Program-made: the position numbers and the translations under genes
The notes under the pieces: generated by a model
Databases searched by the model: none
What the model saw: only the letters and a program-made list of their open reading frames with translations
What the model was told of the DNA's origin: nothing
NCBI GenBank assembly: GCA_030683605.1
Contig: JAUXPL010000015.1
Coordinates: 1-42,300, forward strand
Source of the DNA: Candidatus Altimarinota bacterium
Lineage (GTDB): Bacteria > Patescibacteriota > Gracilibacteria > BD1-5 > UBA6164
Direction of reading: 5' to 3'
Length of the DNA stretch: 42,300 nt
In this document: positions 4,213-42,300 of the stretch, piece by piece
How positions within the stretch are numbered: the stretch's first letter is position 1
How the letters are laid out: every line of letters starts with the position of its first letter

Positions 4213-4217
4213 ATAAT

Positions 4218-4247
4218 AAAAAGAGTATGAGAAATCATACTCTTTTT
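4218..4247. terminator. Bidirectional terminator
   Basis: A 13-bp perfect stem (AAAAAGAGTATGA with its complement) around a GAAA loop, flanked by A and T runs, sits between the convergent amidase/SpoIID gene and the small gene at 4264-4518. Confidence 0.85.
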
Positions 4248-4263
4248 AAAAATTCTCCTTTTT

Positions 4264-4518: not shown

Positions 4519-4588
4519 GTTATTCTCCTACAAAAAGGCTTGCTAAATATAGTACTTTTTTAGATTAATACAAATTTATTTTAAAAAA

Positions 4589-4693
4589 TTGACTATATTA
4601 CTATTTTGTGTATATTACATATACATTAAATAAAACGGAATTTAGGATGTTTTAATAGTATTTTAACTATTAAATGTATTTTTTTTTTCTAAG
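4589..4693 (+). ncRNA. Possible small RNA 1 with promoter and terminator
   Basis: A promoter-like TTGACT (4589) and TATATT (4611), 16 bases apart, precede a short stretch. It ends in a hairpin with arms TTTAATAGT and ACTATTAAA (4651-4674), followed by a long T run. No open frame of note lies between them, so a transcript of about 65-70 nt is possible. A second hairpin plus T run (4704-4733) follows. Sequence alone cannot show that it is expressed. Confidence 0.4.
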
Positions 4694-4703
4694 AAGTTTC
4701 ATT

Positions 4704-4733
4704 GCTACTTTTTTTATAAAAGTAGCTTTTTTT
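4704..4733 (+). terminator. Intrinsic terminator in the gene-free stretch
   Basis: The hairpin has arms GCTACTTTT and AAAAGTAGC with a 5-nt loop and seven T residues after it. No gene ends here, so it would serve an untranslated transcript or back up the terminator at 4651-4690. Confidence 0.6.
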
Positions 4734-4746
4734 ATTTCAAAAATAT

Positions 4747-4873
4747 TTGACTTTATATAGTAATTGTTTATTATATTTGTAATCCAGGTTTGTTATTAAA
4801 CAATCTTTGTGGTTTTATCATAAAACAAAGGGAAATTGTTATTTTTTGGGGCTGTATTTGCCCCTTTTTTTTT
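4747..4873 (+). ncRNA. Possible structured small RNA 2 upstream of uvrB
   Basis: A TTGACT at 4747 with an AT-rich -10 region is followed by a region that folds well. AACAAT (4799-4804) pairs with ATTGTT, CTTTG with CAAAG and TTTTA with TAAAA around a 3-nt loop, giving one extended hairpin. It is followed by a GC terminator, GGGGC-TGTATTT-GCCCC (4848-4864), and nine T residues. The gene-free region 4519-4944 thus holds three hairpin-plus-T-run ends and two or three promoter-like sites. I do not recognise an RNA family; it is not tmRNA, and I see no 6S-like internal bubble. Confidence 0.45.
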
Positions 4874-4883
4874 GAAAAAATTA

Positions 4884-4911
4884 TTGATATTACTTAAAAA
4901 ATGGCTATATT
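4884..4911 (+). promoter_or_regulatory. Probable uvrB promoter
   Basis: TTGATA, a 16-base spacer and TATATT give near-consensus -35 and -10 boxes about 33 bases before the uvrB ATG. The predicted 5' leader is short and has no Shine-Dalgarno motif. Confidence 0.5.
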
Positions 4912-4944
4912 TAAACTACATTTAAAAATATTATATTAAAAAAA

Positions 4945-9735: not shown

Positions 9736-10947
9736 ATGAAAAAAATACCTGTTACAGTTTTGTCTGGATTCTTATGATCAGGTAAAACGACATTGTTAAA
9801 TAATATTTTGAGACAAAGATGAGATAAAAAAGTTGCTATAATAGTAAATGATATGTGAGAAATAAATGTAGATGCAAATCTAGTTAATAATGAAAATAGG
9901 CTTTCTCATACTGAAGAAAAATTGGTAGAAATGAGTAATGGTTGTATTTGTTGTACTCTTAGAGAAGACTTATTAATAGAAGTAGAAAAATTAGCAAAAG
10001 AATGAAAATATGATGCAATTATAATAGAAAGTACTTGAATATCAGAACCAATTCCTGTAGCTCAGACTTTTTCATATATTGATGAAGAAACTTGAATAGA
10101 TTTGAATAAGTGGGCTTATTTAGATACTATGGTTACAGTTGTAGATGCTTATAATTTTTTAAATCAATTTTCTAGTGATAAAACATTAGCAGATTTAAGA
10201 CAATGAGTTTCTGATGAAGATGATAGACCGCTTGTAAATCTAATAGTTGAACAGATAGAATTTTGTGATGTAGTAGTATTGAATAAAACTGATTTGGTTT
10301 CTAGAGAAGAATTACACTATATTAAATGAATAATTAAATGATTACAATCTGATGCAAAAATAATAGAAACAGTTAATTCCAAGGTTGATATTTCAGAAAT
10401 AGTTGATACAGGACTTTTTGATTTCGAAAAGGCAGAAAAAAGTCCATTATGGGTAAAAGAATTAGAATCATGATGACATTCAACTCATATTTCAGAAACT
10501 GATGAATATTGAATTAGCTCATTTTTATACAAGAGAGAAATACCTTTTCATCCAGAAAGATTTATGCAAGCTGCTAGTAAAGTATGGCCTTGAGTAGTAA
10601 GATCAAAATGAATATTCTGGGTTGCAAGTAGAAATGATTTAGCATGAAATTGGAGCTTGGCATGATGAAGTATCAAAATTGATCCAATGTGAAGATGGAT
10701 GGCTAGTTTTTCTAGAGATGAGAGAGTGTTATATTCTCCAGAAGCAAATGAAGAATATGAAAAAGATTATTGAAATAAATTATTTTGAGATAGGAGAAAT
10801 GAAATGGTTGTTATCGGTGTAAAAATGGATAATGATGAAATTATTTCTATATTAGATGAAGCACTTTTAACAGAAGAAGAATTAAAAACACCTGAAAATT
10901 GGATACATTTCAATGATCCATTACCAATATGGCAGTTAGCTGATTAA
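9736..10947 (+). CDS. COG0523 (ZigA/YciC-like) GTPase, probable zinc metallochaperone
   Basis: 403 aa, the usual length of the ZigA/YciC branch. G1 is SGFLGSGKTT (10-19; G14 is UGA). The metal site GCICCTL holds the CxCC motif (C70, C72, C73). ESTGISEP, and NKTDL for G4, follow. The C-terminal CobW_C domain begins near [21 protein letters not shown]-like residues, the stretch typical of Zur-regulated zinc members, and a His-bearing linker (GGHSTH) precedes it. Such proteins use GTP hydrolysis to hand Zn to client enzymes. First of four genes on one strand with 19 bp, then overlapping junctions, so probably one mRNA. The clients may be the operon's own products, but that is inference. Confidence 0.87.
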
Positions 10948-20718: not shown

Positions 20719-21621
20719 ATGAGAGAATATGAAGTTTGGCATGATGAATTTAAATGAGATGATTCAGTTAATGAATATTGGCATTGAATATTTTTTATGC
20801 CAGTTGATAAAAAAATTGAAATTATAGAACATTTAAAAGATATTAAAGAAAAACATAAAACTGATAAAAATAAAGATGTTAAGTTTGCTTGATGTTTGAA
20901 AGATTTTAATACAACTAATGCTAAAATAGTTAGAAATAATTTAAGTTTATTTTCTCATTTACTTATAAACAAGGAAAGTGAAGCTAAAACAGATATACAT
21001 TTTTGGAATAAAAAAGATATTTATGAACAAAACTATGAACCATTTTTGACTATAGAATGAATATATTGATGTAAATTTGTTTTATTACATATTCCAGATA
21101 ATCATGAAAATATGACTAATTTTCCTCTATCTTATGCAGATCGTGTAGAAACAACTTTTCGTATTTGATTTAAATGATGAGCTCATTTATTATTTTGAGA
21201 TAAAAGTCCAATTATAATTAAAAATTTTTATTTTGATTGATATGAACATCATTGAAGAAAAATTGATTTTTGAAGAATTACAAAATGAGAATTTAGAAAT
21301 TACTGTAATATTTGTGAAAATTGTAGTATTGATGATAGATGAATGAAAGAAAGAAATGATGAAACAAAAATAATTATTTCTTTTATAGATAATATAGTTT
21401 GATGACTATCAGCTATTTTAAAAAATAAAACAGATTCTTGAAATGTATTATTTTGATTAAAATCAATTTATGAAAGATTAAAAAATAAACAAATTTTAAA
21501 GAATCATAATTGAAGATGGTATAAAAGTATAAATGTTTCAAAATTAGTTATAAAAAATTGAGAAATAACTTTTCCAGATTTTTTTGAAAATACTGAACAA
21601 ATTAGTTTATTTGATTTATAA
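20719..21621 (+). CDS. DUF3800-like (RNase H fold?) protein with clamp-motif tail
   Basis: 300 aa. The start YEVWHDEFKGDD...EYWHGIFFMP resembles the first strand pair of DUF3800 proteins (YxDESG, then a strand), and IISFIDNIVGGLSA near residue 225 resembles their Q-L-A-D-x-x-A-G helix, so an RNase H-like nuclease fold is plausible but not proven. A C-x2-C pair (YCNICENCS, about 195-203) could bind zinc. Residues 250-300 are a separate module, 46 of 51 identical to the tail of the protein at 22144-22833, ending QISLFDL. The QISLF part fits the beta-clamp binding consensus QL[SD]LF. It lies 17 bp after res on the same strand and could be an accessory of the island. Glycines are mainly UGA. Confidence 0.6.
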
Positions 21622-21625
21622 ATTT

Positions 21626-21742
21626 TTACACAATCAATTTTCTCAATTTTCCTAAAGTTCTCTCTAATTCTTCAGGAAACTCAAAGCACGGTAAATATAA
21701 TGATTTTCGACCCATCACTGGGTTGTTCCACCATTTTTTTAT
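21626..21742 (-). pseudogene. C-terminal remnant of a lost minus-strand gene
   Basis: 39 open codons with no usable start read WWNNPVMGRKSLYLPCFEF and PEELERTLGKLRKLIV before TAA. The composition looks like real protein. An upstream in-frame TAA and a terminator (21757-21782) cut it off. I do not recognise the family. It suggests a gene lost by deletion when the neighbouring cassette arrived. Confidence 0.45.
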
Positions 21743-21756
21743 TTACTATTAAGCGA

Positions 21757-21782
21757 AAAACTCTATATTTTTATAGAGTTTT
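21757..21782. terminator. Terminator after the clamp-tail gene
   Basis: Arms AAAACTCTATA and TATAGAGTTTT around a 4-nt T loop, active in either direction. Confidence 0.75.
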
Positions 21783-21844
21783 ATTATTTGATTTTTTTAA
21801 AAAATAAATATAATCAAATTGTTTTAAAAAGTAATTAATTTATT

Positions 21845-22141
21845 ATGATTGATTTAAAAAAACTACAAGATACTATATTTAATAATAAAATGGAAAAATG
21901 ATTTAATACAACAGATATTCATAAAGAATTTTGTTTTATTTATGAAGAATTAGCTGAGGCAAACAGAGCATATTATAGAAAAGAAACTAATATTTGAGAG
22001 GAATTGGCTGATGTAACAATATTTTTATTATGACTATCTGAAATGTTATGAATTAATTTAGAAAATGAAATTAGAAACAAAATAAAAATAAATGAAAAAA
22101 GAAAATATATAAATAATAATTGAGTTAATACTAAATTATAA
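21845..22141 (+). CDS. MazG-like nucleotide pyrophosphohydrolase
   Basis: 98 aa. A short all-alpha NTP pyrophosphohydrolase pattern: FCFIYEELAEANRAYYR for the first helix with the E-E-x-x-E metal site, then IGEELADVTIFLLGLSEMLG for the E-x-x-D site, then LENEIRNKIKINEKRKY. Family members hydrolyse NTP or dNTP to NMP and pyrophosphate, acting in house-cleaning, (p)ppGpp control or phage defence. The closely following gene (3 bp on) suggests co-expression with the phosphatase-like protein. Short for MazG itself (about 260 aa) but normal for the single-domain MazG-like group. Confidence 0.75.
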
Positions 22142-22143
22142 AT

Positions 22144-22833
22144 ATGTTAATTTATATTTTTAGTCATGCAAAAAGTATTGCTAATACACAAAAAATAGTT
22201 GAATGACACTGAGATTCAAAACTTTGTTTAGTTTGATATATTCAATCATTTTTTTTGTTTTTGAAGTTATTAGGGAAAAAATTTGCTGTTATATATTCAT
22301 CTGATTTAGAAAGATGATATAGAACTGCTCAAATATCCTGTATGACAAATAATATTATCAAAAAGAAAGAATTAAGGGAGAGATATTTGTGAATTAATGA
22401 ATGAAAACATATAGATGATGAATGTTGGGGGGATTTAGTTGATGATTGAGAATCAAATTATGAATGTTGAAAAAGATTAGAAAAATTCATAAAATCATTA
22501 GATGAAAAAAATAATAATATTATAGTATTTACACATTGAAGAATAATATCAAACTATATTTCTATAATAAAATGATATAATAAGGAAAATTGATACAAAA
22601 AAGTTGATAACATTAAAAACTGTTGATTAATTATATTAGAGTTAAATAATTGAAAAATATTGCATTGAATTAAACCTATTTACGAAAGGTTAAAAAGTAA
22701 ACAAATTTTTAAAAATTATAATTGAAGATGGTATAAAAGTGTAAATGTTTCAAAATTAGTTATAAAAAATTGAGAAATAACTTTCCCTGATTTTTTTGAA
22801 AATACTGATCAGATAAGTTTATTTGATTTATAA
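22144..22833 (+). CDS. Histidine-phosphatase-family protein with clamp-motif tail
   Basis: 229 aa. Residues 1-175 follow the phosphoglycerate mutase-like fold: IFSHAKSIANT (H8 nucleophile) where the family has RHGxT-x-N, YSSDLERGYRTAQ, ELRERYLGINEGK and VFTHGRIISNYI (H131). The usual Arg before the nucleophile is Ser7 and the Gly after it is Ala9, so activity or substrate may differ. Residues 179-229 repeat the tail of the protein at 20719-21621 (46/51 identical), ending QISLFDL. The tail is not part of the phosphatase fold. It probably forms a pair with the MazG-like gene 3 bp upstream. Nucleotide or effector dephosphorylation near replication forks is a guess from the motif. Confidence 0.7.
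22678..22833 (+). repeat. Second copy of a 156-bp coding repeat (first copy 21466-21621)
   Basis: Both copies encode the 51 C-terminal residues of two otherwise unrelated proteins, in the same frame and ending at the same TAA. The encoded tails differ at five positions (N/S, L/F, H/Y, I/V, E/D), and most DNA differences are silent, so the protein sequence appears to be under selection. Confidence 0.85.
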
Positions 22834-22839
22834 TTTTAT

Positions 22840-23133
22840 ATGTTAAATTGTATTAAAAAATGTTTTAAATCAATGTTTAGATTTAAAACTCCTAAAAATC
22901 ATGTAAAAATATATGATAATATTTTTATTGCTAATGAAAAAGAAAATCAGGTTTTTGAACAAAGCTTGATTTTTTTAGTAGAATCAAATAAATATTTGCT
23001 AAAAAATTATGAAAATTTATTTATACGGAAATTTTATAATTTTGAATTATTAGTTGAGTTATTTAATATATATTATAAAGAAATGAATCTTTCAGAACAA
23101 AATCCCTGCAAAAAAATGATGAAAAATAGCTAA
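22840..23133 (+). CDS. Hypothetical protein, 97 aa
   Basis: ATG 6 bp after the preceding stop, ending TAG. Basic N-terminus with two Cys (MLNCIKKCFKSMFRFK), then a helical, Leu/Phe/Asn-rich body. It contains no glycine, so the genetic code gives no test. No motif recognised. It uses CGG once (FIRKF), a very rare codon here. The 174 bases that follow contain only short broken frames (for example MQEKNYKVRLVKM then two stops) and may be a decayed gene. It may be the last gene of the island. Confidence 0.45.
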   Translation: MLNCIKKCFKSMFRFKTPKNHVKIYDNIFIANEKENQVFEQSLIFLVESNKYLLKNYENLFIRKFYNFELLVELFNIYYKEMNLSEQNPCKKMMKNS

Positions 23134-23307
23134 AAATGCAAGAAAAGAACTATAAAGTAAGACTGGTAAAAATGTAGTAAGTGGTGATAATTTTTTGATG
23201 AGTTGAGAAATTGAGAAGTTAAGTTAAAGAATTTTAATTCCAAGCATTTCCCCTTGTAATATTTTCAAAGCTTATATAATATTATAAATATTTTTATAAA
23301 TATATAA

Positions 23308-24159
23308 ATGACTAATTATTTTAAAAACCGCAATTTAGTTATTGCAACTATGCATCAAAAAGAAGTTGTAATTAAACCTCTTTTAGAAAAAGAATTATGA
23401 GTAAGTTGTTTTGTATTAAAAGATTTTAATACTGATATATTTGGTACTTTTACAAGGGAAATTAAAAGAACAGGAGATATGCTAGATGCAGCTAGATTAA
23501 AAATCAACTATGCAATGGATATATCCTGATGTGATTTAGGTATTTCTAGTGAATGAAGCTTTTGATCTCATTATTGATTACCATTAATTAATTCAAATTT
23601 TGAGCTTACATTAATTATTGATAGAAAAAATAATCTTGAAATTATATGACATCACCTTAGTCCAGATACAAATGTTAATGGTAAATATATTACAAGTATA
23701 GAAGATGTTATTAAAACATCAAAAGATTGGGGTTTTCCAGGACATGGTATAATTGTTCGCTTAAAAGAAAATAGTAGGTTTTTTATAGATAAGGATATAA
23801 ATAATGAGTCTGAATTAGAAAAATCAGTTTATAAAATATTATCTTTACCGTTTATAAAAAAGGCTTATATAGAAACTGATATGAGGGCTAATAGAAATCC
23901 TACTCGTATGAAAAATATAGAACTTTCTGTAAAAGATTTATTAAAAAATATTAATTTAGAATGTCCTAAATGTTGAACACCTTGATTTACTATAACAGAT
24001 ATAGAATGATGATTAGCTTGTTGATTATGTTTATTACCAACTAGTATACCTATATATGAAATACATACTTGTAGTAAGTGTAAATTTACACAAAAAGTAA
24101 AAATAGAAAAATATGGGAATTATGCAGATCCCTGAGAATGTTTGCATTGTAATCCTTAA
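23308..24159 (+). CDS. DUF6671 family protein
   Basis: 283 aa. It matches the DUF6671 pattern as I remember it: NLVIATMHQKEVVIKPLLEK, a GTFTREIKRTGD segment, SSEGSFGSH, LTLIIDRKNNLEIIGH, a GFPGHGIIVR segment and a C-terminal zinc-ribbon-like part with C-x2-C pairs (ECPKCGTPGF, HTCSKCKF, ECLHCNP). The first half has features reminiscent of nucleotide or glycosyl-phosphate binding, but the function is not established. It is followed 10 bp later by the TsaC/Sua5 gene, possibly one operon. From here to about 30.4 kb arginine is often CGT or CGC, whereas uvrB, the metallochaperone operon and the R-M genes use nearly only AGA. Confidence 0.65.
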
Positions 24160-24169: not shown

Positions 24170-25162
24170 ATGTTAAAACAAAATATTAAAAAAGCAGCTA
24201 GTATTATTAAAAATGGATGAGTTGTAGCATTTCCTACAGAAACTGTTTATTGATTGTGAGCAAATATTTATAATAAGGATGCTATTATGAGAATTTTTGA
24301 AATAAAATGAAGAGCTTCAGATAATCCTCTTATAGTACATATTGATAATATTGATAAATTAACAACTCTCGCTATAGAAATACCTAAAATCACATATGAA
24401 TTAGCTAAAAAGTTTTGGCCAGGTCCATTAACAATTGTTTTTAAAAAGAGTGATAGTGTGATAAATGAAGTTTCTGCTTGAAGTGATACAGTTGCTATTC
24501 GTATACCTAATAATTCTATTGCAATAGAATTATTAAAAATTGCAAATGTACCTATAGCTGCTCCATCAGCAAATTTATCTTGAAAACCAAGTCCTACTAA
24601 AGCTTCTCATGTAAAAGATGATTTATTAAACAAAGTAGATTATATTTTAGATTGATGAGAAACAATAATTTGAGTTGAATCAACTGTTATTGATATAACT
24701 GTTTCTCCACCAATATTGTTAAGACCATGAGGAGTCTCATTAGAGGAATTAAGAGAACTTTTACCTAATATTCAATTACACCCTAATTTAAAATGAGAAA
24801 GTCAAGAAAATATAATTAAAAGTCCATGAATGAAATATCGTCATTATGCACCTGATACAAATTTATTTTTATTTAATCCATTAACAGATGATATTGAATT
24901 ATTAATTAAAAAATATAAATATTTGTGAAATAAGATTGGAGTAATAGCGACATTAGAAACTCATGATAAATATAATAATATAGATAAAGTCTTTTTATTA
25001 TGAAGTCGTAAAAAAATGACAGATATATCTAAAAATTTATTTAACATATTGAGAGAAGTTGATAAGTATTGATTAGATTTAGTATTTTGTGAAACTTTTG
25101 AAGAAAAATGAATAGGTTTAGCAGTAATGGATCGCTTAAAAAGAGCTTGTGAAAAAAAGTAA
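24170..25162 (+). CDS. tsaC: Threonylcarbamoyl-AMP synthase, Sua5 type
   Basis: 330 aa, so the long Sua5 form with a C-terminal domain instead of the short TsaC/YrdC form. Motifs: AFPTETVYGLGANI, IKGRASDNPLIVHI, WPGPLTIVFK, VAIRIPNN, APSANLSGKPSPT, GVESTVIDIT and RPGGVS; the linker SPGMKYRHYAPDT begins the Sua5 domain. It makes the L-threonylcarbamoyl-AMP used for t6A37 in ANN-decoding tRNAs, an essential step in nearly all bacteria. Partners (TsaD, TsaB, TsaE) are not in the window. UGA-Gly is frequent, including the GGE and PGG positions. Confidence 0.9.
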
Positions 25163-25172
25163 AATTTAGATT

Positions 25173-25295
25173 ATGCCAATTTCGTAGAATATATAAATAA
25201 AAAATGTGTTTGAAGGAGTTTCTAAATTTGCATCAGAAAAAAATGAAGAAAATATGGATAAATTGGATTATTTAATGAAAAAAATATATTTATAA
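25173..25295 (+). pseudogene. Decayed small reading frame between tsaC and the DUF4256 gene
   Basis: From ATG 25173 one frame reads MPIS, TAG, NI, TAA, then IKNVFEGVSKFASEKNEENM and a helical end closing at TAA 25295. The part after the two stops has normal protein-like composition. I read it as a short gene broken by two stop mutations; a chance open frame is possible. Confidence 0.35.
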
Positions 25296-25304
25296 CAGAT
25301 ATTT

Positions 25305-25868
25305 ATGAAAAATAATAATATATTATCTCCAGAACAAACATTAGAGATATTTAAAGTTTTAAAAAGTCGTTTTGAAAAAAATATGAATCGTCATATAGAT
25401 ATAGAGTGGACTAAAATACAAGAAAAATTAGAATCAAATCCATCTAAATTATATGTATTGAATGAAATGGAAAATACTGATTGAGAGCCAGATGTGATAG
25501 CATATGATAAAAATACTTGAGAATATATTTTTTGTGATTGTGCTATAGAAACTCCAAAAGCTCGTAGAAGTATGTGCTATGATAGGGAAGCATTGGAAAC
25601 TAGAAAAGAATTCAAACCAAAAAATACAGCAATAGATATGGCACAAGAAATATGAATAGAATTATTAAATGAAGAAGAATATAGAGAATTACAAAAACTT
25701 GGAAATTTTGATACCAAAACTTCTAGTTGGCTAAAAACACCAGAAAAAATCAGAAAATTATGATGAGCAATATTTGCAGACTATAGATATGATACAGTTT
25801 TTGTATACCACAATGGTGCAGAATCATACTTTGGTGTTAGATGATTTCGTGGATTATTAAGAGTATAA
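25305..25868 (+). CDS. DUF4256 family protein
   Basis: 187 aa, full family length. Recognisable blocks are FKVLKSRFEKNMNRHIDIEW, KLYVLNEMENTDGEPDVIAY, CDCAIETPKARRSMCYDREA, FDTKTSSWLKTPEKIRKLGG and FVYHNGAESYFGVRGFRG, which agree with DUF4256 as I know it. The family is widely distributed, cytosolic and of unknown function. Six or more arginines are CGT. Transcribed alone, followed by a repeat. Confidence 0.8.
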
Positions 25869-25901
25869 TTTTAATAGAAATAATAATTGTGTACTTTAGT
25901 T

Positions 25902-26025
25902 TTACCCCTTCCCCCTGCGGGGACTTCCCCTAAAAGGGGCAGAAAAAATTATTTCTTCCCTTTTATCCGAAGGTGTATCCTTTAGGGCCAAAGGGAAGTA
26001 CCGAGCTACGAGGGGATGGGATAGA
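25902..26025. repeat. GC-rich repeat F, with inverted partner at 8367-8432
   Basis: Contains CCCCCTGCGGGGACTT, the palindrome CCCCTAAAAGGGG and, at 25957-25988, 32 nt that are the exact reverse complement of 8397-8428. A further arm, CCCTTT...AAAGGG, closes the structure. It sits between the DUF4256 and xseB genes. Confidence 0.8.
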
Positions 26026-26068
26026 ACATTAGTTCACATTACATAAATAAAATCTAAAACAAACAAAA

Positions 26069-26260
26069 ATGGCAACAAAACAAAATTTTAAAGATTCATA
26101 TAATAGATTGCAAGAGATTTCAAATATCTTGGATAAAGAAGAAGTAATAGATGTAGACCAATTGATTAAATTGCAAGAAGAAGCTAAGAAACTGTATAAT
26201 TTTTGTAATTCAAAATTGAAAGAATTGGATGATAAAATAGATTCTAAAGATGTAATATAA
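26069..26260 (+). CDS. xseB: Exodeoxyribonuclease VII small subunit
   Basis: 63 aa, a little shorter than most XseB. One long amphipathic helical hairpin with the family pattern FKDSYNRLQEISNILDKEE, then an I-D-V-D-Q-L-I-K-L-Q-E-E-A-K-K-L-type second helix and CNSKLKELDDKI. Several copies wrap the stalk of XseA. The TAA overlaps the xseA ATG (TAATGG), so translation is coupled, which suits the unequal subunit complex. Confidence 0.85.
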   Translation: MATKQNFKDSYNRLQEISNILDKEEVIDVDQLIKLQEEAKKLYNFCNSKLKELDDKIDSKDVI

Positions 26261-27486
26261 TGGAAACTCCAGTATTGAAATTGTCCGAATTTCTAGATAT
26301 TGTTAAATCACAATTTGATGAGATAATATGATACCATGCTTATATTATAGAAGCAGAAGTTAAGTCTATTAAACAAAATAGGCAGTTTTATTATATGGAA
26401 TTGGTAGAAATAGATGAATGAAAAATAGTCGATGTAGCAAAGGCAAATATATTTAATCCTAGCGTGATGACTAGTTTTTTGAGAGAAGTAAATATATGGA
26501 ATATTCAAGAATTGGTGTGAAAAAAACTAATGTTAACAATTAGACCAACATTTCATAAAACATACAATTTCTCAGTTAATGTAATGCATATAAATACTGA
26601 TTTTTTTGTATGATGACTAGAAAAAAAGAAAAAGGAAACAATCAAAGATTTGAAAGAAAGATGAATTTTTTACAATAATAAATCTAGAGATATATGAACT
26701 CCTACATTTAATATTGCTGTTATAACTTGAGATAAAAGCGAATGATTTAGAGATTTTGAGACTATTTTAAAAGAATCATGATATAAATTTAATCTAACAG
26801 TTTTCAAATCTCTAGTACATGGTGAAAAAGCAAGTATTCAAGTACTAGAACAACTAAAAAAAATCAGTTTAGTGAGAGAAAAATATGATTTCAATCTAGT
26901 AGCTATTATTAGATGATGATGAGGTAGTGATGGGATAAATTGGACCAATGATTATGAATTATGTAAATTGGTTTGTGAATATGAAATACCTGTAATGACA
27001 GCAGTATGACATACAGTTGATCAATCTATACTTGATATGGTGTCGTGTTTTGAGTGCAAAACTCCATCTGAAGCATCCAAAATACTAATAGATATATATG
27101 ATGAATTTAGAGAAAATCTAGATTCAGATTATGAATATATTAACAATTTAATATTTGATTTCAGAGATAAATATAAACAAGAATTAAAATATATATCAAA
27201 AAATCTACCACTTCAAATATCTAGAAAAATCAGGTGATACAAGCAAAAATTGGAATCATTTAATATAGATAAAAAGCTGAAATATAATCTCAAATATCTT
27301 CAAAATAGTTTGGAATATTTGTATTCTAATATCAAATCAAATAATCCAGATAAAATACTAGATAAATGATATAATCTGATTTTTGATACTAAATGAAAAG
27401 TAATAAAAGAATATGAAATATGAAATAAATATTTGATGAAATCAAAAAATCATGAATATAAAATAGAAGTATTGGATAAGAAATAA
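26260..27486 (+). CDS. xseA: Exodeoxyribonuclease VII large subunit
   Basis: 408 aa. An N-terminal OB fold (about 1-100) begins VLKLSEFLDIVKSQFDEIIG. The catalytic domain has GTPTFNIAVITGDKSEGFRDF, VAIIRGGGGSDGINWTND and VMTAVGHTVDQSILDMVS, followed by CKTPSEASK where most relatives have RAPTPSAAAE. The long coiled stalk follows, and DKGYNLIFDTKGKVI ends it. ExoVII degrades single-stranded DNA in both directions to oligonucleotides, in mismatch repair and in clearing damage. The invariant glycines of the RGGGGSD run are largely UGA. A 63-bp piece of the stalk region (27217-27279) is repeated at 30437-30499. Confidence 0.93.
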
Positions 27487-27490
27487 AATA

Positions 27491-27523
27491 AAAAGCTGTA
27501 GTTTTTATAAACCTACAGCTTTT
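27491..27523 (+). terminator. xseA terminator
   Basis: Arms AAAAGCTGTAG and CTACAGCTTTT. A near copy follows the GH13 gene at 30491-30523. Confidence 0.85.
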
Positions 27524-27527
27524 TAAA

Positions 27528-27600
27528 TACTTCCTTTTTTGTTTATTCTTCCAAGTAATATTTGTTTTTTTCTTGTACATTGTATTTCTTTTTTAATTAT
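27528..27600 (-). pseudogene. Degenerate 3' end of a membrane-protein gene (paralogue of 30543-30935)
   Basis: On the minus strand this stretch parallels the last 25 codons of the 130-aa gene at 30543: ACAATGTACAAGAAAAAAAC here against ACAATGTTCAAGAAAAAAAC there, then weaker similarity to the stop. The frame is broken and no body of the gene remains. It sits beside the xseA terminator exactly as the intact gene sits beside the terminator copy. Confidence 0.55.
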
Positions 27601-27612
27601 TTTTATAATTTC

Positions 27613-27642
27613 AAAAGACTATGGATAACTCCATAGTCTTTT
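27613..27642. terminator. Bidirectional terminator
   Basis: A perfect 13-bp stem (AAAAGACTATGGA with its complement) and TAAC loop lie just after the stop of the minus-strand 39-aa gene. Confidence 0.85.
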
Positions 27643-27660
27643 ATCAAAAACTGTAATTAA

Positions 27661-27780
27661 CTAATCTTTTTTCTTTTCAGAATTATTTATGCGATTGTAT
27701 AATGCTACAGCTAATGGGTCGTAATGTGCACTTTCTTTTGAAAGAAATCTTTCTAATAAAAGAGATTTTACAATTACCAT
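27661..27780 (-). CDS. Very small basic protein, 39 aa, unknown function
   Basis: MVIVKSLLLERFLSKESAHY, then DPLAVALYNRINNSEKKKD and TAG. I chose the ATG at 27780 because AAAGGAG stands 6 bases before it, one of only four strong Shine-Dalgarno sites in the window; a longer in-frame start upstream would place that site inside the coding region. It has a hydrophobic N-terminal stretch, an acidic-basic tail and no glycine. A dedicated terminator follows. Together these make a real gene likely despite its size. No family recognised. Confidence 0.55.
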   Translation of the reverse strand: MVIVKSLLLERFLSKESAHYDPLAVALYNRINNSEKKKD

Positions 27781-27886
27781 TTTTTCTCCTTTTTCATTTA
27801 TATTAATGGAATTGTATATTATTAATATTGTAATATTAGTCAAATAATAATCTTAAAATCATAAATAATGTGAATTGGCATAATTT

Positions 27887-27976
27887 GGCTTAATCTAAAT
27901 TTTGGTGGAGAAAGAAAAAATATAGTTATAATAATAAAGTACTAAGGTTCTAATCCATCAAAATTTTGATTAAGCC
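27887..27976. repeat. Long inverted repeat upstream of the GH13 gene
   Basis: Two 23-nt arms (27887-27909 and 27954-27976, starting GGCTTAATC and ending GATTAAGCC) pair with one mismatch and one G-T pair around a 44-nt purine-rich loop. No T run follows, so it is not a plain terminator. The rest of the gene-free stretch 27781-28105 is AT-rich, with a TTGACA-like -35 near 28009 that could drive the GH13 gene. Confidence 0.65.
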
Positions 27977-28105
27977 TATATTTAAAACAAATGAAAATAA
28001 TTATTATATTGACAATTATTAATATTAATCTAGTATTATATAAGCTAATATTTTTAGATTAGAATAATACATTTAATACAATTGTTTAAGAAATAATAAA
28101 TCTAT

Positions 28106-30418
28106 ATGAATAAATTACCAAGTGCTGAAAATTGTTATATTATTGAAGAAGATCTTCAATCTATACTTGATTCTGATTTTATGAATTATACATCATCAAT
28201 GGTTAGATATGTATTGAATCCTCAAGATAAATTACCACCTAAATTAAAAGAAAATAATTTATGATTCATATTCGCATCAAATCTTTTAAATCTAGCAGCA
28301 AATATTGATTTCAAATCATGAATAATAACTGTTAATAAAGAATATGTAGTAGCTAATTATAAAAAAATACAAGATTTATTAGAAAAGGAATACAAGCCAA
28401 AAGATAACTTATGTTATTATCCATTACATATTATGGAAACTTCAAATTCATCCAAATTTATACATGGATTACCTTATGTAGAAATTCTTGAAAAATGGAA
28501 TGGTGAATTTGAACAAAATCCATTGAAATTAAAAGTATTTATAGAAAAATTGCGTGATAAATTACATATAGATAGTGATTTAGAAATAGTATCAGCAAAA
28601 GTTGTATGAAGATTGATACATTTGAGAATTAAAAATAATGAATTTGATGTAACTATTCCTTTGTGATATTCTACAAAACATGAAATATTTACTACTGAAG
28701 ATTGAGAATCTATTGAATTAAATGATAGCTATTGAAATATATTCTCACCTCAATGAGCAGAATATATTAGATATTATTTAAATGATGAAGAAATTATTAA
28801 TAGTATAAATACTGCACATAAACAGTGAGCAAAATATATGATTAATTTCTTTTCTTGGAGAGCTCCAGAATATGTTACTAAAGAAAATTATAAAAATTAT
28901 TATTATTTTGAAGTAGAACCAGATTTAGGAGATGAAGAAGCAGTATTAAAATACGATTGAGTACTTCATCATTTCGACGAATGACAAAGAATAATTATTA
29001 AACAAGTAAATGATAGAGATTGAAATTTTCTTTCAACTACACAAGATCAGATTTTACCAGATTATTGAAATAGACAAGGTAATGTTCAAGAACAAAAAAA
29101 TTATGAATATTGGATGAATACATACAAAAGCGAGCTTTATCGTTTGGTAAATTTTTGAGTAGATAGTTTTAGAATAGATTTAGCGCACGGTTTCCGTAAA
29201 AATAATGATTGTAATATGTTGAATACATTAATTAGTGATTTAGTTGATTATGCAGATAAAAAACTTAACAAAAAAGTATTTTTCATACTAGAAACATATG
29301 ATTTCTCAAATTTTTGAGGTACAAATCCAGCAAGTTTTCGAGATTGGAATAATAATCTACCATATCCAGCTGTAAAGGTATATCATAAAGAAACTGAAGA
29401 TAAACTTACTAGTATTCATGATTATCAATGAGTTGATAATTTGATAGATGATTTAAAATGGTTATTTCAAGATATTCGTGGTATATATGGTGAAATGATG
29501 GCTGCATCTACATTTGATGATTATACTCTTTATTCAATTGCTCAAAAATCAGGTATTGATTTCAAACATATTTTAGAAATGGAAATGTTTTTGGGTAAAG
29601 CTTGATATAATATTTTATCTCTTGATAGAGATTTCCTATGAGAAAATTGAGAAATTATTCCTACAGTACCTGGTTGATGTGAATCGCATTACGGGACTGG
29701 AAAATTTATTACTCATACATTTTCATCAAAAGATGAATTTCAATTACATGCAAAAACACAATCTCAAGATATTTATGAAAGATCTGAATCAATTAAATTA
29801 TTACAAGAAATAAATAAATTTCCTGATATAAAAGGTTTAAGTATAAACAAAGAAAAAAAACAACTAGTATTTATTTTTATTGATAATTCAAAAAGAATAT
29901 TTGACTTTTCAATTCTAAAGGATTGATGAGCACCTTATACTGTAGAATCAGAGCAAATACCAGAAATTATATCACAAGAGCTAGTAAAAGATTTATTAAA
30001 ACTAGAACAATTAGAAAGAGATTTATCTGAAAAGTTAAAAGATTTAGTTACAAAATATGATTGAAATAAAGAGCAATTACCTCATGTTTATACATATGAT
30101 TTTTGGAAAGAATTTGTAAATTATATAAAACATCAAAGTTGGAATGAAAATTGAATAGCAGAGTGGGATACTTTTAAACAAGAAGCGTATTTTATATTAA
30201 ATAGAGAAAAGTTGATTACTAATTTTCTTTCATATAAAAATATTGATTTGTCTGAGAAAGAGGAACTTGAAAATATAAAGCTAAACACAGATAATGTTAC
30301 TGATGAAAAAATAGAATTAAAGAAACAAATAAAAGAATTAAGAGCAAATTTGGAAAATGAGGTAAGAAGAATTATTGAAAAATCTATTAAAAAAACATAT
30401 CCTGATTTACTAGCATAA
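28106..30418 (+). CDS. GH13-like (alpha-amylase superfamily) glycoside hydrolase or transferase
   Basis: 770 aa, ATG at 28106, TAA at 30416. The catalytic barrel shows VDSFRIDLAHGF (nucleophile D358), FFILETYDF (acid/base E396) and AASTFDDYT (D471/D472 in place of the usual HD), in the GH13 order. The N-terminal 300 residues are an unusual all-alpha/beta region without a motif I recognise, and the C-terminal 120 residues are coiled (KLNTDNVTDEKIELKKQIKE). No signal peptide, so probably cytosolic action on alpha-glucans or on a sugar phosphate acceptor. His before the third Asp is replaced by Phe, so it may be a diverged member. CGT codons occur here, as in the genes at 23.3-25.9 kb. Confidence 0.72.
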
Positions 30419-30436
30419 GGAATGTATAAAAAACTC

Positions 30437-30523
30437 ATATCTAGAAAAATCAGGTGATAAAAGCAAAGACTAGAATCATTTAATATACATAAAAAGCTGT
30501 AGTTTTAATAACCTACAGCTTTT
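30437..30523 (+). pseudogene. Partial duplicate of the xseA 3' region, internally deleted
   Basis: 30437-30499 matches 27217-27279 (inside xseA) at about 58 of 63 positions. It then jumps directly to the match with the xseA terminator (27500 onwards), skipping about 217 bp. The join lies in ATAAAAAGCTG, a word present at both ends of the missing segment in xseA. It now serves as the terminator of the GH13 gene. Confidence 0.75.
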
Positions 30524-30542
30524 TAAATATCCCCTTTTTTGT

Positions 30543-30935
30543 TTATGCTTCAATGCAAAATGTGTTTTTTTCTTGAACATTGTTATCTCTTTTAATTTTT
30601 TTTATTACGAGAAAATTCTCAGCTATTACAGATATTGCCCCGATTAAAAAGCAAAAACTATAAAATGCAATATTTTCGAAATTTTCCAAAAATTCATAAC
30701 TCACTGTTATCAAAACAAAAGCTAAAAATAGTGAAAAAGAATACAAAATAGCATATTTAGTGGAATCCTCTTTGTTTAAAAATTTCCAAAATAGGAAATG
30801 GTTGATTAAAAAAGCTAATGAGAACCCAATTAGTAAGTCAATTGAATTTACTTGGAACATCATTCCTAAGTAAATCAAAATCGTACTAATAAGCAATAGT
30901 ATCGGACAAATGATGTCATAAAAATGAGATTTCAT
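30543..30935 (-). CDS. Four-helix membrane protein, 130 aa, unknown function
   Basis: Four hydrophobic segments (about residues 9-28, 33-52, 63-83, 90-110) and a basic-to-polar C-terminus. ATG at 30935 with TTAGGGG 8 bases before it, a rare good Shine-Dalgarno. Its three glycines are GGA, GGG and GGG, none UGA, though neighbours use UGA for most glycines. It ends TAA. No family recognised. A decayed partial copy of its 3' end lies at 27528-27600, so the gene and flank were duplicated or moved together with the xseA terminator. I infer acquisition from a standard-code source. Confidence 0.65.
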   Translation of the reverse strand: MKSHFYDIICPILLLISTILIYLGMMFQVNSIDLLIGFSLAFLINHFLFWKFLNKEDSTKYAILYSFSLFLAFVLITVSYEFLENFENIAFYSFCFLIGAISVIAENFLVIKKIKRDNNVQEKNTFCIEA

Positions 30936-31007
30936 TTCGTACCCCTAACTAGTTAAAGAAAAAGAACCATATCATAATATCAAAACACTAAGTGAAGTCA
31001 ATTTTTT

Positions 31008-31430
31008 TTATAAAAAATAATTATATACTCATCAATTCAAGGATATATCATATATTTCTTTTAAATCTAGAGGAATATCAAGTTTATTTTTATAAATAAA
31101 GTCAAAACTAAAAAATCAACTTTCACTCCATTCGTGACAATGACTGCAATTCTCCCTAATTATATTATCAAAATCAAAAATATTATTTATTTTGAATAAA
31201 TATTGAATAGTAATTTCATTTTTATTACTTATATATTCTTTAAATCAAATATAGTCTCATATTTTTGCGTTTATTCATGTCTCTTCTTTTATTTCTCTAT
31301 TTAGTGCTTCAATAATTCATTCTCATTTTTCAATTTTTCAGCCTGGTAACATATATTTTCAAGATCCAAAATCTTTTACTAGAAAAATTTTATTTTCTTT
31401 AATTATTATTCATCTTACTTTTATAATCAT
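31008..31430 (-). CDS. Nudix hydrolase
   Basis: 140 aa. A complete Nudix box at residues 31-53: G-x5-E-x7-R-E-I-K-E-E-T-G-I (GKIEKGEGIIEALNREIKEE), preceded by KYMLPGG. Such enzymes hydrolyse nucleoside diphosphate linkages, often to clear oxidised nucleotides (MutT-like) or ADP-ribose-type compounds. A short Cys/His patch (ENCSHCHEW) near residue 95 is unusual and might hold metal. Transcribed toward the 130-aa membrane gene with its own start and no Shine-Dalgarno. UGA encodes the box glycines. Confidence 0.88.
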
Positions 31431-31521
31431 TTTTTTATAATTATTAAATAATTTTAAATATTATAGATAAATATTAATAATAAGAAAATTATATTTACTT
31501 AAAAAATATTTCAACAATAAA

Positions 31522-31545
31522 AAATCGCCTTTAGAAAAGCGATTT
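31522..31545 (-). terminator. Terminator of the ABC-F gene
   Basis: AAATCGC and GCGATTT with a 10-nt loop; on the minus strand it is followed by TTTTTTATT, so it fits the end of the ABC-F transcript. Confidence 0.6.
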
Positions 31546-31555
31546 ATTACTATGT

Positions 31556-31573
31556 ATAAGTACATGTACTTAT
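31556..31573. promoter_or_regulatory. Perfect 18-bp palindrome
   Basis: ATAAGTACATGTACTTAT is its own reverse complement with no spacer, the shape of a dimeric repressor site. It lies 133 bp after the ABC-F stop and 126 bp before the Nudix start, so it could control Nudix. It could also be a chance AT-rich palindrome or part of the 3' structure. Confidence 0.35.
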
Positions 31574-31705
31574 TTATATTATTATGCATGAGTATTATAT
31601 AATATTATCAAAATAAACGAAATATAAAAATATATAATAACTAGATTTATGGTTATATAATGCAATAAAAAAGTGTTAACAAATATTTGTCACCAGAGCT
31701 ATATT

Positions 31706-33568
31706 TTATCCCCCAAATACTTCTGCAAATCACTTTTCAGGCTCAGTAAATACATCTAGTCATCCATCTCTTATTAGCCATACTTTGTTTGAAACACTTT
31801 GTAGTAAATCTCTGTCATGTGATACTATTATCGTAGTTCCATGAAATCAATCTAGCATTTCTTTTATTACTTCTTTTGAGTGCAAGTCTAGGTGATTTGT
31901 TGGCTCATCCATAACGATTATATGTGGTTTTACTAGTAGCATCTTAGTCAGTGCCACTTTTGCTCTTTCTCATCATGATAGAGTTTTTATGAATTGTTCT
32001 ACTTTTTCTCAAGTGATAAGCAATCATCACAAAATAGTACGAATATGTTTTTCATTATCGAAATCCTTTTTTAATTCATCTATTATACTAGCTTCCATAT
32101 CTAGATTTTCTAATACTTGAGAATAAGAACCAATTGTTAAATGCTCATTTATATCTACTTTACCATTCAATGCTTTTAATTCTCATAGAATAGTTTTTAA
32201 AAATGTTGATTTTCAAGCACCATTTTTTCAGATTATTCATATTTTATCACTTTTATACACTTCTAAGTATTCTGGCATTTTTACTATTGGAGTTGTATAT
32301 CATACTTCTACATCGTATAGTTTCATAATTATCTCTGGAAGTCTTTTTTCTAGATGAATTTGTATAGTTTTTACTTTTGCTTCATTTTCAGGCATATCTA
32401 GTATTTCTACTTTGTCTAATGCTTTTATTCTACTTTGTACACTTGTAGCTTTTGCACTATTTGCTCTAAATCTGTTTATATAATCTGTTTGTCTTTGTAT
32501 TTCTTTTTGTTGGTCTTCATAGTCTTTCATTTCTTTGTTGAAATTTGCTTCTTTTTCTATCAAATATTGTTCATAATTACCAGGATAATTATGTATTTTT
32601 TTTCCTGATATCTCTGCTATTTTACTAGAAGTATTGTTTATGAATCTGATATCATGAGAGATAGATAAAATTGCTTTTTTCCAGTTTTTACAAAACTTTT
32701 CCAGAAACACAATACCATTTATATCCAAGTGATTTGTAGGTTCATCAAGTACCAATATATCTACTTCCTGTATCAAAAATTTGGCTATTTGTACCTTTGT
32801 TTGTTCTCCTCCAGATAATTGTAATACATTGAAATCTAGTTGAGCATCAGTAAATCAAAAATATTTCAGTATTTCTAGCTGTAAAATATGTTTTTTGAAT
32901 CAATCCAATTCAATTAATTCTTTGTTCAATTTTTCTATTTCTTCCCAGTTTGAGTTATTCCCACTCCTTACTAAGGAGGGGGTTAGGGGTTGGTCTTTCA
33001 GTTCTTCTAATCTTTTTATTTTTTCATTTATTTCTGGAAATATTTCTAGCATTTCTTGTCTTAAAGTATTGTCTTTTGACTTCCAGAACAAGTCTTGAGA
33101 AAGATATCATATTTTTAATCCTGAAGCCAATTCTATGCTACCATCATTTATTTCTTCTACTCATATAATCATTTTTAAAAGAGTTGTTTTACCACAACCA
33201 TTTTTTCATATTAGAGCTACTTTATCTGTGTTATTTATCTTGAAATTTGCTTTATGAAAAAGCTCTGTTTTTTCTATATTTTTAGTTAATTCTTTTATAG
33301 TTATGAGACTAGATGCTATTTGAGATTTACCTGCGAACAAATATTTAGGTATAGTATCTAGACTGTACTCTTTGTCTGCTTCTTTTTTTACATGCATTTC
33401 ACCCATTTCAAATTCTTTTTCTAAGTATTTATTTAGTCTCTTATACTTTGTTTCTTCCTTTATTTTTGGGTCCTGTTCATTCAAAAAATCTTCACATAAT
33501 TCTTTTACTTCATTATAAGTGAAATCAGGATGATGCTCTATTACTTTTTCTATTATTTCGTGTAACAT
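31706..33568 (-). CDS. ABC-F family ATPase (ribosome-associated or antibiotic-resistance type)
   Basis: 620 aa with two nucleotide-binding domains and no membrane helices. NBD1: GKNGCGKTT (121-129), QLSGGEQTKVQ, LVLDEPTNHLD. A linker of about 80 residues (KEMKDYEDQQKEIQRQTDYI...) matches the P-site tRNA-interaction motif. NBD2: GKNGAGKST, TLSGGERAKVAL, IVMDEPTNHLD. ABC-F proteins bind the ribosomal E site and help elongation or release stalled ribosomes. The N-terminal extension of about 85 residues before NBD1 is longer than usual. A palindromic element (32955-32996) lies in frame in NBD1 as DQPLTPSLVRSGNN. No Shine-Dalgarno before ATG. Confidence 0.9.
32955..32996 (-). repeat. Palindromic element G, in frame inside the ABC-F gene
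   Basis: Core CTCCTTA-C-TAAGGAG with the family flanks GGTTGG and AACCCC on the plus strand. It is read on the minus strand and in a frame one base off from the copies in uvrB and the pilins. The uvrB register here would hit TAA and TAG, so only this register keeps the gene open. Confidence 0.75.
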
Positions 33569-39974: not shown

Positions 39975-40110
39975 TTAAGACCTCCATAAATCAAAAGTGT
40001 ACATATATTTTAAATTGATAATTATATTTGTCAAACAATAAAATTATTTTTAAATAATATACAAAAAATGTCCAGTTAAAAATTTAAATAAAATAGTAAA
40101 AAATAAAAAT

Positions 40111-40140
40111 AAAAATATAATAAAAATACTTAATAATTTA
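40111..40140 (+). repeat. Duplicated 30-nt leader before both pilin genes
   Basis: The 30 nt at 40111-40140 recur exactly at 41681-41710, about 11 bp before each pilin ATG. They are AT-only and could include a -10 element or a translation leader. The conservation suggests recent tandem duplication of the gene start. Confidence 0.75.
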
Positions 40141-40151
40141 TTTATATATTT

Positions 40152-41657
40152 ATGCATAGAAATAAAATAAACCCATCTCAATTTTTTCCATGTCAGGGGA
40201 GAGGTAGAACAGCTTTTACCCTAGTAGAGTTAATAGTAGTAATTACGATATTAGCAATACTTGGTACAATAGCCTTTATATCACTTAGTTGATATAGTGA
40301 AGATGCCAGAGATAGTACAAGAGTGTCTGATTTATCAGTAATAAAAACAAGTCTAGAATTATTTCATCTAGATGCAGGTAAATATCCAAAACCAACAAAT
40401 GGAATAGAAATAACATATAGTTGAGCAGTAGTATGGACACAATGAACAATCTGAGAGACAGTACATGCAAATCTATCAAAACTAGATAAAATACCATTAG
40501 ATCCATTAACAGAAAAAGAATATACATATTCAGTAATAAGTAGTGGAAATGAATATGAATTATGATGAATAACTGAAGGGGGGATTGTATCACTTAACCC
40601 ATCCCAACCTTCCCTAAAATTAGGGAAGGGGCAAAACAATGCAAATGCATGAACAGTAGAAGCCCAAGCCTATACGACATGAAATTATAATGGAATGATG
40701 GCAAAGAGTTTGAGTGGAGAAACATGTAGAATATTTAGTCTACCAAGTATAATAACAAATGATACAAGTATAACAGATCTACAACAACTAGTAACAGAAG
40801 AGAGATTAGTATATAGATGATACAAAAATCTACCAAGTACATTCAAGACAAGTAAATTCAAAAACGATGGATGATTTGAATTTACCCCAAATCAACTTGT
40901 AGCCTATATTGATACATGAAGTTGTGCAAAGATAACAGAAAACACAGCATCATGAATACAAGCAAGAGTGACATTATTGAAATGATTACAAGATAGTTAT
41001 AGTGGAACAATAGTACAAAATGATTCAGAGATTAAGAGAGTATTAGATTTAGTAATAGACCAAAATAATCCTAGTACAGAAGTATTAAATCTAGTATGAG
41101 ATTTGGTAAATAATAATTTATGATGAAATGTAGATAGATGAGGAAGTTCTAGTAGTTCATGATGAAGTACTAGTAGTGGATGATCTACAATTGAATATTG
41201 AAGTATTTTTGGTGTATGATCATGGACTAAAAATGATATTTTTGCATGAACATCATTTTTAACACCTGATGAAAGTCATATTTCATATGATTCACAAAAT
41301 TTTGCATTTACATGAAGCTGATATATTGATCTTTATTTAGATATAGACCTTTCGACGACTTCATTAACATCTTACTTAAGTTTTAATAATGCAGTATGTC
41401 ATATGATGATGATGTGATATGTAGGATGACCTGATTGTTTTAATATTTATACAGTAGAAAATCTATCTGGAGGTATATATAAGCATAGGTTTAATTATAA
41501 TTTACCTTCTAGTAGTCCTCTTAGAATATTATTTGCATGAGAGCAGTTTTGAGTTGATAGAAATTTTAATATTATAAATATTACAGGATATTGAAAAAAT
41601 GATATTTTACCATTATCATCTCCATTAAATTTCAATGTTCTTTCTGTAAACTTTTAG
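40152..41657 (+). CDS. Type IV pilin-like (pseudopilin) protein with long ectodomain
   Basis: 501 aa. A leader of about 21 residues ends RTA, then FTLVELIVVITILAILGTIA, the prepilin helix with F at +1 and E at +5. Position -1 is Ala instead of the usual Gly. The leader is partly encoded by a palindromic element (40170-40206), giving NPSQFFPCQGRGR. The helix is followed by YSEDARDSTRVSDLSVIKTS, HLDAGKYPKPT and DPLTEKEYTYS, typical of Gracilibacteria/CPR major-pilin-like proteins. A second palindromic element is in frame at 40596-40636. Residues about 210-340 match the start of the protein at 1-1422, then comes a Ser/Gly linker (SSSSSGGSTSSGG) and a C-terminal beta-rich domain of about 150 residues. 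Exported and assembled by a type IV-like system; likely in surface attachment. Confidence 0.85.
40170..40206 (+). repeat. Palindromic element I in the pilin leader
   Basis: AACCCATCTCAATTTTTTCC then TGTCAGGGGAGAGGTAG. The downstream pilin has the better-preserved copy (41739-41775), where TCTCCCC pairs with GGGGAGA. Both translate in the same register as the uvrB copies. Confidence 0.7.
40596..40636 (+). repeat. Palindromic element J in the pilin ectodomain
   Basis: AACCCATCCCAACCTTCCCT and its mirrored second half; core palindrome at 40608-40629. It encodes NPSQPSLKLGKGQN, next to NPSQF of element I and [11 protein letters not shown] of element A: three loci, same register. Confidence 0.8.
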
Positions 41658-41720
41658 TTTTATAATATATAAATGTAATTAAAAATATAATAAAAATACT
41701 TAATAATTTATTACAAAATT

Positions 41721-42300
41721 ATGCATAAACAAAAAATAAACCCCTCTCAATTCTCCCCTTGTCAGGGGAGAGGTAGAACAGCTTTTACCCTAGTAGAGTT
41801 AATAGTAGTAATTACGATATTAGCAATACTTGGTACAATAGCCTTTATTAGTTTACAATGATATAGTACCCAAGCAAGAGATAGTACAAGAATAAGTGAT
41901 ATGTCATCAATGAAATCAACACTAGAATTATTTCATTTAGATGCAGGTAAATATCCACAAGTATCAAGTTGAACAAATATCACATATAGTTGAGCAGTAG
42001 CATGGACACAATGATATTTTTGAGAAAGTGTATATTCAAATGTATCTAAATTGGATAAAATTCCAACAGATCCACTAACAGAAAAAGAATATGTATATAG
42101 TACAACGTCATCAAGAAACGAATACCAATTAGCCTGAGTAATGGAAGGTGATGAAGTTACAATGAATAATGAACAATGAATAATTAATAATGTAGCTGCA
42201 CTGATAGAGGTATCAGCCTCAGAAAAGACAGCATTATTGAGAATAAGTGGTTCATATAATGGAAAAATATTAAAAGTGAGTACATGATGATTGGATTGTG
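41721..42300 (+). CDS. Second type IV pilin-like protein (3' truncated by window end)
   Basis: 193 codons visible, still open at the window end. It starts MHKQKINPSQFSPCQGRGRT, then AFTLVELIVVITILAILGTI, nearly identical to the gene before it; the first 64 codons share almost all sequence, then the ectodomains diverge (FISLQGYSTQARDSTRISDM, LDAGKYPQVSSGT, DPLTEKEYVYS). It also carries IEVSASEKTALLRISGSYNG. Tandem duplication followed by divergence of the exposed part is what a variable surface protein would show. Its leader contains the intact form of the palindromic element. Confidence 0.85.

Follow-up and report, generated by a model that had tools for sequence, protein, structure and literature searches.

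A candidate tandem duplication with complementary gene loss downstream of xseA in a Gracilibacteria genome

The way in which gene order changes in bacteria is debated. According to the SNAP hypothesis (Brandis and Hughes 2020; PMC7055797), a segment is duplicated and the two copies then lose different genes, which leads to a new bacterial gene order; that paper states that direct empirical evidence for SNAP-caused rearrangements in modern species is lacking and that, once the process is complete, nothing unique to the model remains. Partial duplication followed by random loss is described as a common model of gene order change in animal mitochondrial genomes (PMC5745709), and a study of a conserved operon cluster names SNAP as a potential mechanism of its changes (PMC8046335). 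Here we analysed 42,300 nucleotides (the window) of Candidatus Altimarinota bacterium, positions 1 to 42,300 of contig JAUXPL010000015.1 (assembly GCA_030683605.1), in which the end of xseA, the gene for the large subunit of exonuclease VII, and the sequence behind it are present in two partial copies. With a probability of roughly 0.6, this locus arose by tandem duplication of several kilobases and complementary loss, with two of the losses taking place at repeats of 11 and 12 bp and with a gene of no known family, P0001, being moved. The leftovers in the window are still legible because these two losses left short-repeat scars and relics persist.

As in the SNAP model, a duplicated segment, differing gene losses and reordered genes come together in the window locus, and gene relics that have an active partner are remains of the sort for which that paper suggests a search (PMC7055797). 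Unlike there, the unit is several kilobases long rather than tens of kilobases to a megabase (8-355 kb in the paper's isolates), the locus has no known selected gene, and no long repeat is visible at the duplication ends. The mitochondrial case differs in that the window belongs to a bacterial chromosome of variable gene content, whose loss scars have readable repeat borders (PMC5745709). In maize fractionation, one duplicate is likewise trimmed between short direct repeats (3-24 bp in maize; 11 and 12 bp here) while its counterpart stays intact, but the duplication there is a tetraploidy and not a local bacterial one, and the gaps are mostly 5-178 bp as against 219 and 406 bp here (PMC2893956). 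Natural transformation of pneumococci offers a comparable route from taken-up DNA to tandem duplication; the duplications there measure about 100-900 kb and proceed via repeats such as incomplete insertion sequence copies, none of which was seen at the window locus (PMC3784515). Among the titles and abstract openings listed in searches of the open-access literature, none claimed such a duplication-loss fossil in a bacterium, and we know of no duplication-loss example for this lineage. Thus, the locus is probably a new example of an already proposed kind, with clear scars. That it is a readable natural fossil of the whole cycle of duplication, fixation by complementary loss and short-repeat trimming, as SNAP predicts, is a more tentative claim, which we would not quite back at even odds. 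Complementary partial copies together with repeat-bordered gaps could serve as a signature to look for across many pairs of close genomes, and the question of how gene order changes would thereby become testable.

The nearest relatives of the window genome are metagenome-derived Gracilibacteria genomes. TGA is read as glycine (code 25), and xseA contains 18 in-frame TGA codons versus 3 other glycine codons. Matches to xseA were found in 6 of the 59 genomes searched, the window's own included; beyond its own, identity above 80% was reached only by L015 (CALREY010000012.1, which fits genome G004) and L016 (JAQTXG010000013.1, which fits genome G002), both congeners of the window genome, whose xseA homologues are 85-86% identical. 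The features that carry the argument are the following, with hairpin energies given for the plus strand.

26260-27486, plus strand: xseA, exonuclease VII large subunit, 408 amino acids (aa) under code 25, whole in the left copy (Pfam PF02601, E 1e-42)
27217-27279, plus strand: stretch of xseA with a second, decayed copy at 30437-30499 (sequence match)
27269-27279, plus strand: ATAAAAAGCTG, first border repeat of the 219-bp gap, inside xseA
27488-27498, plus strand: ATAAAAAGCTG, second border repeat, at the start of the left T1
27489-27525, unstranded: terminator-like hairpin T1, left copy, behind xseA (palindrome; -16.0 kcal/mol, z -6.1)
27543-27606, minus strand: decayed end of the 130-aa gene, left copy (sequence match)
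27595-27606, plus strand: AATTATTTTTAT, scar of the candidate deletion of the 130-aa gene, left copy (two-piece match to L015)
27661-27780, minus strand: 39-aa open reading frame (ORF), left copy only (66% identical in G004; in 2 of 39 genomes including its own)
28106-30418, plus strand: P0001, 770 aa, no known family, which would have moved here
30437-30499, plus strand: decayed xseA fragment, right copy (58 of 63 bases, 92%, equal to xseA 27217-27279)
30489-30499, plus strand: ATAAAAAGCTG, scar of a deletion of 219 bp or longer
30490-30525, unstranded: terminator-like hairpin T1, right copy, behind P0001 and the 130-aa gene (-15.5 kcal/mol, z -6.6)
30543-30935, minus strand: 130-aa membrane-protein-like gene, intact, right copy (88% identical in G002, 87% in G004)
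30594-30605, plus strand: AATTTTTTTTAT, border repeat in the intact copy
31000-31011, plus strand: AATTTTTTTTAT, other border repeat, 406 bp away
31706-33568, minus strand: ABC-F-type ATPase gene, right copy

A preliminary description of this DNA had proposed that an internal stretch of xseA is joined directly to a second copy of the terminator by deletion between 11-bp repeats. We found the join to be exact: at ATAAAAAGCTG, the fragment at 30437-30499 passes into a second copy of T1 and the terminal part of the 130-aa gene, and the same word stands at both borders of the undeleted copy (27269 and 27488). The gap had been given as 217 bp; the copy spacings are 3220 and about 3001 bp, so the missing stretch measures 219 bp (one repeat plus 208 bp). 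By the layout of L015 (9010 to 10011) it would be about 1 kb if the 251-aa gene described below was still in place at the time of the deletion. Alignment of the two copies, which had been suggested as a check, gave 92% identity for the xseA part and 87% for the T1/130 part (30489-30605 vs 27488-27606, E 7e-33 in a search of the own genome). In the window, ATAAAAAGCTG occurs three times on the plus strand (27269, 27488 and 30489) and not at all on the minus strand. We rejected the possibility that it is a dispersed word, because all three copies counted in the window belong to this locus. Among 400,000 random pairs of points placed 150-1000 bp apart in window positions 20001-42300, a shared word of at least 11 bp was met at a frequency of 5.5e-5 and one of at least 12 bp at 1.25e-5, although the latter figure should not be pressed for the T-rich 12-bp word AATTTTTTTTAT. 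It is therefore unlikely that random breakpoints gave an 11-bp shared word at a join. Direct repeats that could serve as targets are common, with 133 maximal pairs of at least 11 bp at 150-1000 bp spacing in the window; two such pairs lie within 26260-27560 at a spacing of 150-400 bp. Twelve matches to 27217-27610 were found in the own genome, 5 of them within the two copies (including 2 of the palindromic terminator on the opposite strand), and the remaining 7 lie elsewhere, are 32-75 bp long and 74-88% identical, and represent no further copy of the locus. The two copies and the repeat borders support the duplication of a segment and the deletion at the 11-bp repeat, both of which had been suggested earlier.

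The left copy is, by its alignment, a deletion product too, in which a second short-repeat deletion would have removed the 130-aa gene. While the right copy matches L015 in one piece (30481-31015 to 10003-10537), the left copy does so in two (27485-27606 to 10008-10128 and 27600-27851 to 10528-10781), and the L015 sequence between them is the body of the 130-aa gene. The scar AATTATTTTTAT at 27595 differs by one mismatch from AATTTTTTTTAT, which lies at both borders in the intact copy (30594 and 31000) and otherwise has an exact copy in the window only at 36310. Considering that both scars fall on direct repeats (11 and 12 bp) which are still legible at borders elsewhere in the window, the reading of duplication and loss is supported. 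The earlier observation that a decayed twin of the 130-aa gene's end lies next to the xseA terminator is confirmed: of 81 columns, 8 are private to this twin (7 substitutions and 1 inserted base, which shifts the frame), whereas the right copy and G002 have 2 each and G004 has none. The excess of private columns has a p of 0.10 against the right copy alone and of 0.002 against the other three sequences pooled. Because the left copy continues into sequence found past the 130-aa gene in L015, the duplicated unit extended beyond that gene. This sequence includes the 39-aa ORF, which was absent from G002 in the homologue search of 39 genomes; a hairpin was seen by eye past this ORF at 27613-27642.

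The terminator had been regarded as originally belonging to xseA and reused by another gene. The reuse stands, since a copy of T1 now lies behind P0001, but its original ownership does not agree with the relatives. The order in L015 is xseA, a 251-aa gene, T1 and the 130-aa gene (reverse). In L016, three other genes come between xseA and a 305-aa homologue of the 251-aa gene, behind which T1 and the 130-aa gene follow. The original place of T1 was thus between the 251-aa gene and the gene converging on it. A search with the 251-aa protein matched 2 of the 5 genomes of the genus and not in the window's own (96.58% complete); as T1 follows the 251/305-aa gene in both relatives, xseA itself took T1 over. 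On the minus strand T1 also folds well (left -16.4 kcal/mol, z -5.3; right -16.5 kcal/mol, z -5.7), so that an intact hairpin stands at the end of xseA in the left copy and, in the right copy, at the ends of P0001 and the 130-aa gene, which converge on it. Judging from the predicted folds, these hairpins probably terminate transcription.

Pieced together from the two relatives, the ancestral order would have been xseB, xseA, 251-aa gene, T1, 130-aa gene (reverse), 39-aa ORF (reverse), ABC-F gene (reverse) and P0001. A tandem duplication of several kilobases, from within xseA to just beyond P0001, would then have been followed by different losses. The left copy would have kept xseA, T1, the 39-aa ORF and P0001 and lost the 251-aa gene, the 130-aa gene (at the 12-bp repeats) and the ABC-F gene, while the right copy would have kept T1, the 130-aa gene and the ABC-F gene and lost the end of xseA (at the 11-bp repeats), the 39-aa ORF and P0001. 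As an outcome, P0001 would have come to lie between xseA and the 130-aa gene, and the terminator copies now behind xseA and P0001 would originally have belonged to neither gene. Replication slippage or single-strand annealing may have produced the deletions. In fact, the two partial copies lie close together in the same orientation and keep different genes (the 251-aa gene is in neither), and the window order is derivable from the order pieced from G002 and G004 with strands kept. Remnants of lost genes are present at the old sites of xseA (right) and of the 130-aa gene (left); none is clear for P0001 or the ABC-F gene. We infer that a single tandem duplication was the source of everything, and that P0001 moved rather than newly arrived. 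The right copy also gained a gene, since the NUDIX gene at 31008-31430 lacks a homologue in those contigs of G002 and G004 that were compared.

The position of P0001 in G002 bears on this move. There the 130-aa gene (22927-23319) is followed by the ABC-F gene (25100-27133) and, adjoining it, by a 66% identical homologue of P0001 (27298-29559) on the same strand as in the window, which starts about 4 kb past the 130-aa gene; no homologue was found in G004. The synonymous divergence (dS) between P0001 and this homologue is 1.18, within the range of five resident genes (777, 279, 316, xseA and 238; 0.98-1.39), and because of this likeness a recent arrival of P0001 is not indicated. Lower dS versus G002 was obtained for the ABC-F gene (0.72), DUF4256 (0.37) and the 130-aa gene (0.34). 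P0001 occurs in 2 of 353 genomes of the class, its own included, and matched no Pfam family at E 0.001 (two weak matches, E 0.13 and 0.32), no NCBIfam up to E 1 and a single PDB chain (E 0.45 and 0.91). An AlphaFold model built from two sequences reached a mean predicted local distance difference test score of 36 and is unusable. The stretch GVDSFRIDLA of P0001 may resemble a motif of GH13 glycosidases. Upstream of P0001, 27991-28068 matches at 77% the sequence ahead of a different gene in G004 (contig C12 22666-22744), with a score above those of 200 shuffles; perhaps, as far as the alignment goes, this reflects a shared promoter type.

Several observations speak against tandem duplication and complementary loss. 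The locus was found at above 80% identity in only 2 of the 58 other genomes, which differ from each other in gene content there, and the whole ancestral order was absent as a unit from every genome examined, with no other genome of the window's species among them. No long repeat was seen by eye where the 251-aa gene was lost beside xseA, and no partner repeat is visible at the junction 30436/30437. Beside the ABC-F gene in the window no clear remnant of P0001 was found: the best P0001-like matches are short and AT-rich (28 and 40 bp, E 0.002, to the P0001 region of G002; 29 bp on the opposite strand, E 0.007, to the window's own P0001). The sequence upstream of P0001 scored 45 against the region upstream of the ABC-F gene (shuffles up to 69) and 44 against that upstream of P0001 in G002 (shuffles up to 57), while it matched a G004 region upstream of an unrelated gene with a score of 67 (shuffles up to 50). 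Nor do the trees show the two copies as sisters. Four sequences (left, right, G004 and G002) were compared over 182 aligned columns, 9 of them informative, of which 2 group the copies as sisters, 4 group left with G004 and 3 group left with G002. By the approximately unbiased test (2000 resamplings, which the program warns are too few), the p values for these three trees were 0.20, 0.76 and 0.35 over all columns, where no tree was rejected, and 0.042, 0.67 and 0.43 for the T1/130 part. In the xseA part, where again no tree was rejected, they were 0.50, 0.59 and 0.09.

That the copies are not shown to be sisters counts in favour of an origin of the second copy from a congener, the main rival explanation, which we consider a good deal less probable. 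A piece or circle of DNA with part of the locus and P0001 would have been taken up and joined via the shared xseA-T1-130 stretch by a single crossover or one-sided homology, leaving this stretch on both sides of P0001, and the short-repeat deletions would have followed. Synonymous divergence among the three species is 0.18-0.34 for the 130-aa gene and 0.53-1.01 for xseA, as if the former stretch had been exchanged between species, but DUF4256 (25305-25868), which lies outside the copies, is equally low (0.28-0.37), so that the sign is not specific. Both values lie clearly below those of the six remaining genes compared across the three species. This may reflect interspecies exchange or slow evolution; it weakens the tree from that stretch and leaves room for a congener origin of one copy. 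The 130-aa gene has no TGA among its 3 glycine codons. In the old xseA frame the fragment carries one stop (TAC to TAA), and it also has two amino-acid substitutions and two silent changes relative to xseA. The two silent changes together give a leucine codon shared with G002 and weigh on the congener's side; on the other side, the fragment and the left xseA share two states that neither G002 nor G004 has. If the fragment evolved neutrally, it would be younger than the split of the window's species from G004, because 13.6-16.4 differences in 63 positions would be expected at that age and 5 were seen (P 0.003 to 0.0003). Moreover, P0001 diverges from its G002 homologue like a resident gene, and that homologue already neighbours the locus in G002, which a chance arrival would not predict.

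The insertion of P0001 alone, in a repair or template-switch event in which part of the flank was copied at its end while the neighbourhood as a whole was not duplicated, seems improbable to us. It would account for the lack of an ABC-F remnant beside P0001 and of a clear P0001 remnant beside the ABC-F gene, and it agrees with the variable gene content of the region among the three genomes (window, G002 and G004) and with a dispersed palindromic element just upstream of P0001. Yet the segment with the 39-aa ORF, which lies past the 130-aa gene in G004, is left of P0001 and the 130-aa gene right of it, so that a flank copy needs further losses, and the surroundings and strand of the G002 homologue agree with P0001 having moved within the locus. 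An assembly or binning error at one copy has very little probability. The draft genome consists of 57 contigs and repeats are where assemblers err, but the copies differ by 8% in the xseA part and 13% in the T1/130 part, which is more than identical repeats that had been collapsed or cross-joined would show; a single contig contains both, and every junction other than 30436/30437 fits a deletion between words found in relatives or in the other copy.

The following features flank the locus or lie within it.

26069-26260, plus strand: xseB, exonuclease VII small subunit (Pfam PF02609, E 5e-9)
27887-27976, unstranded: dispersed palindromic element of about 90 bp with 23-bp inverted ends, like a miniature inverted-repeat transposable element
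31501-31696, unstranded: stretch matching L015 11638-11831, downstream of a 262-aa gene in L015

Of the own-genome matches beyond the query itself, 14 of 17 touch the palindromic element, and in contigs C53 and C36 (553 and 95 bp from the contig end) its end runs into the start of an ORF, like a parent insertion sequence. It may have joined the segment with the 39-aa ORF to P0001. As a cause of the rearrangement it was rejected, because it sits at no scar, nor at 30436/30437. The 262-aa gene of L015 has no counterpart in the window; part of 31501-31696 also matches G004 contig C12 40570-40691 (73%), and this stretch may be a dispersed repeat. In more distant relatives, the surroundings of xseA (G012 and G017) and those of the ABC-F gene (G001) contained no homologue of the 251-, 130- or 39-aa proteins or of P0001. 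In L015, the product of a gene at 3514-5631 resembles a GGDEF/EAL protein; none of the 35 glycine codons of this gene is TGA, although the genome uses code 25, a pattern like that of a gene taken from a standard-code bacterium. Other direct duplications in the window lie at 40079-42098 (spacing 1569, 79-80%) and 21438-22840 (spacing 1212, 88%).

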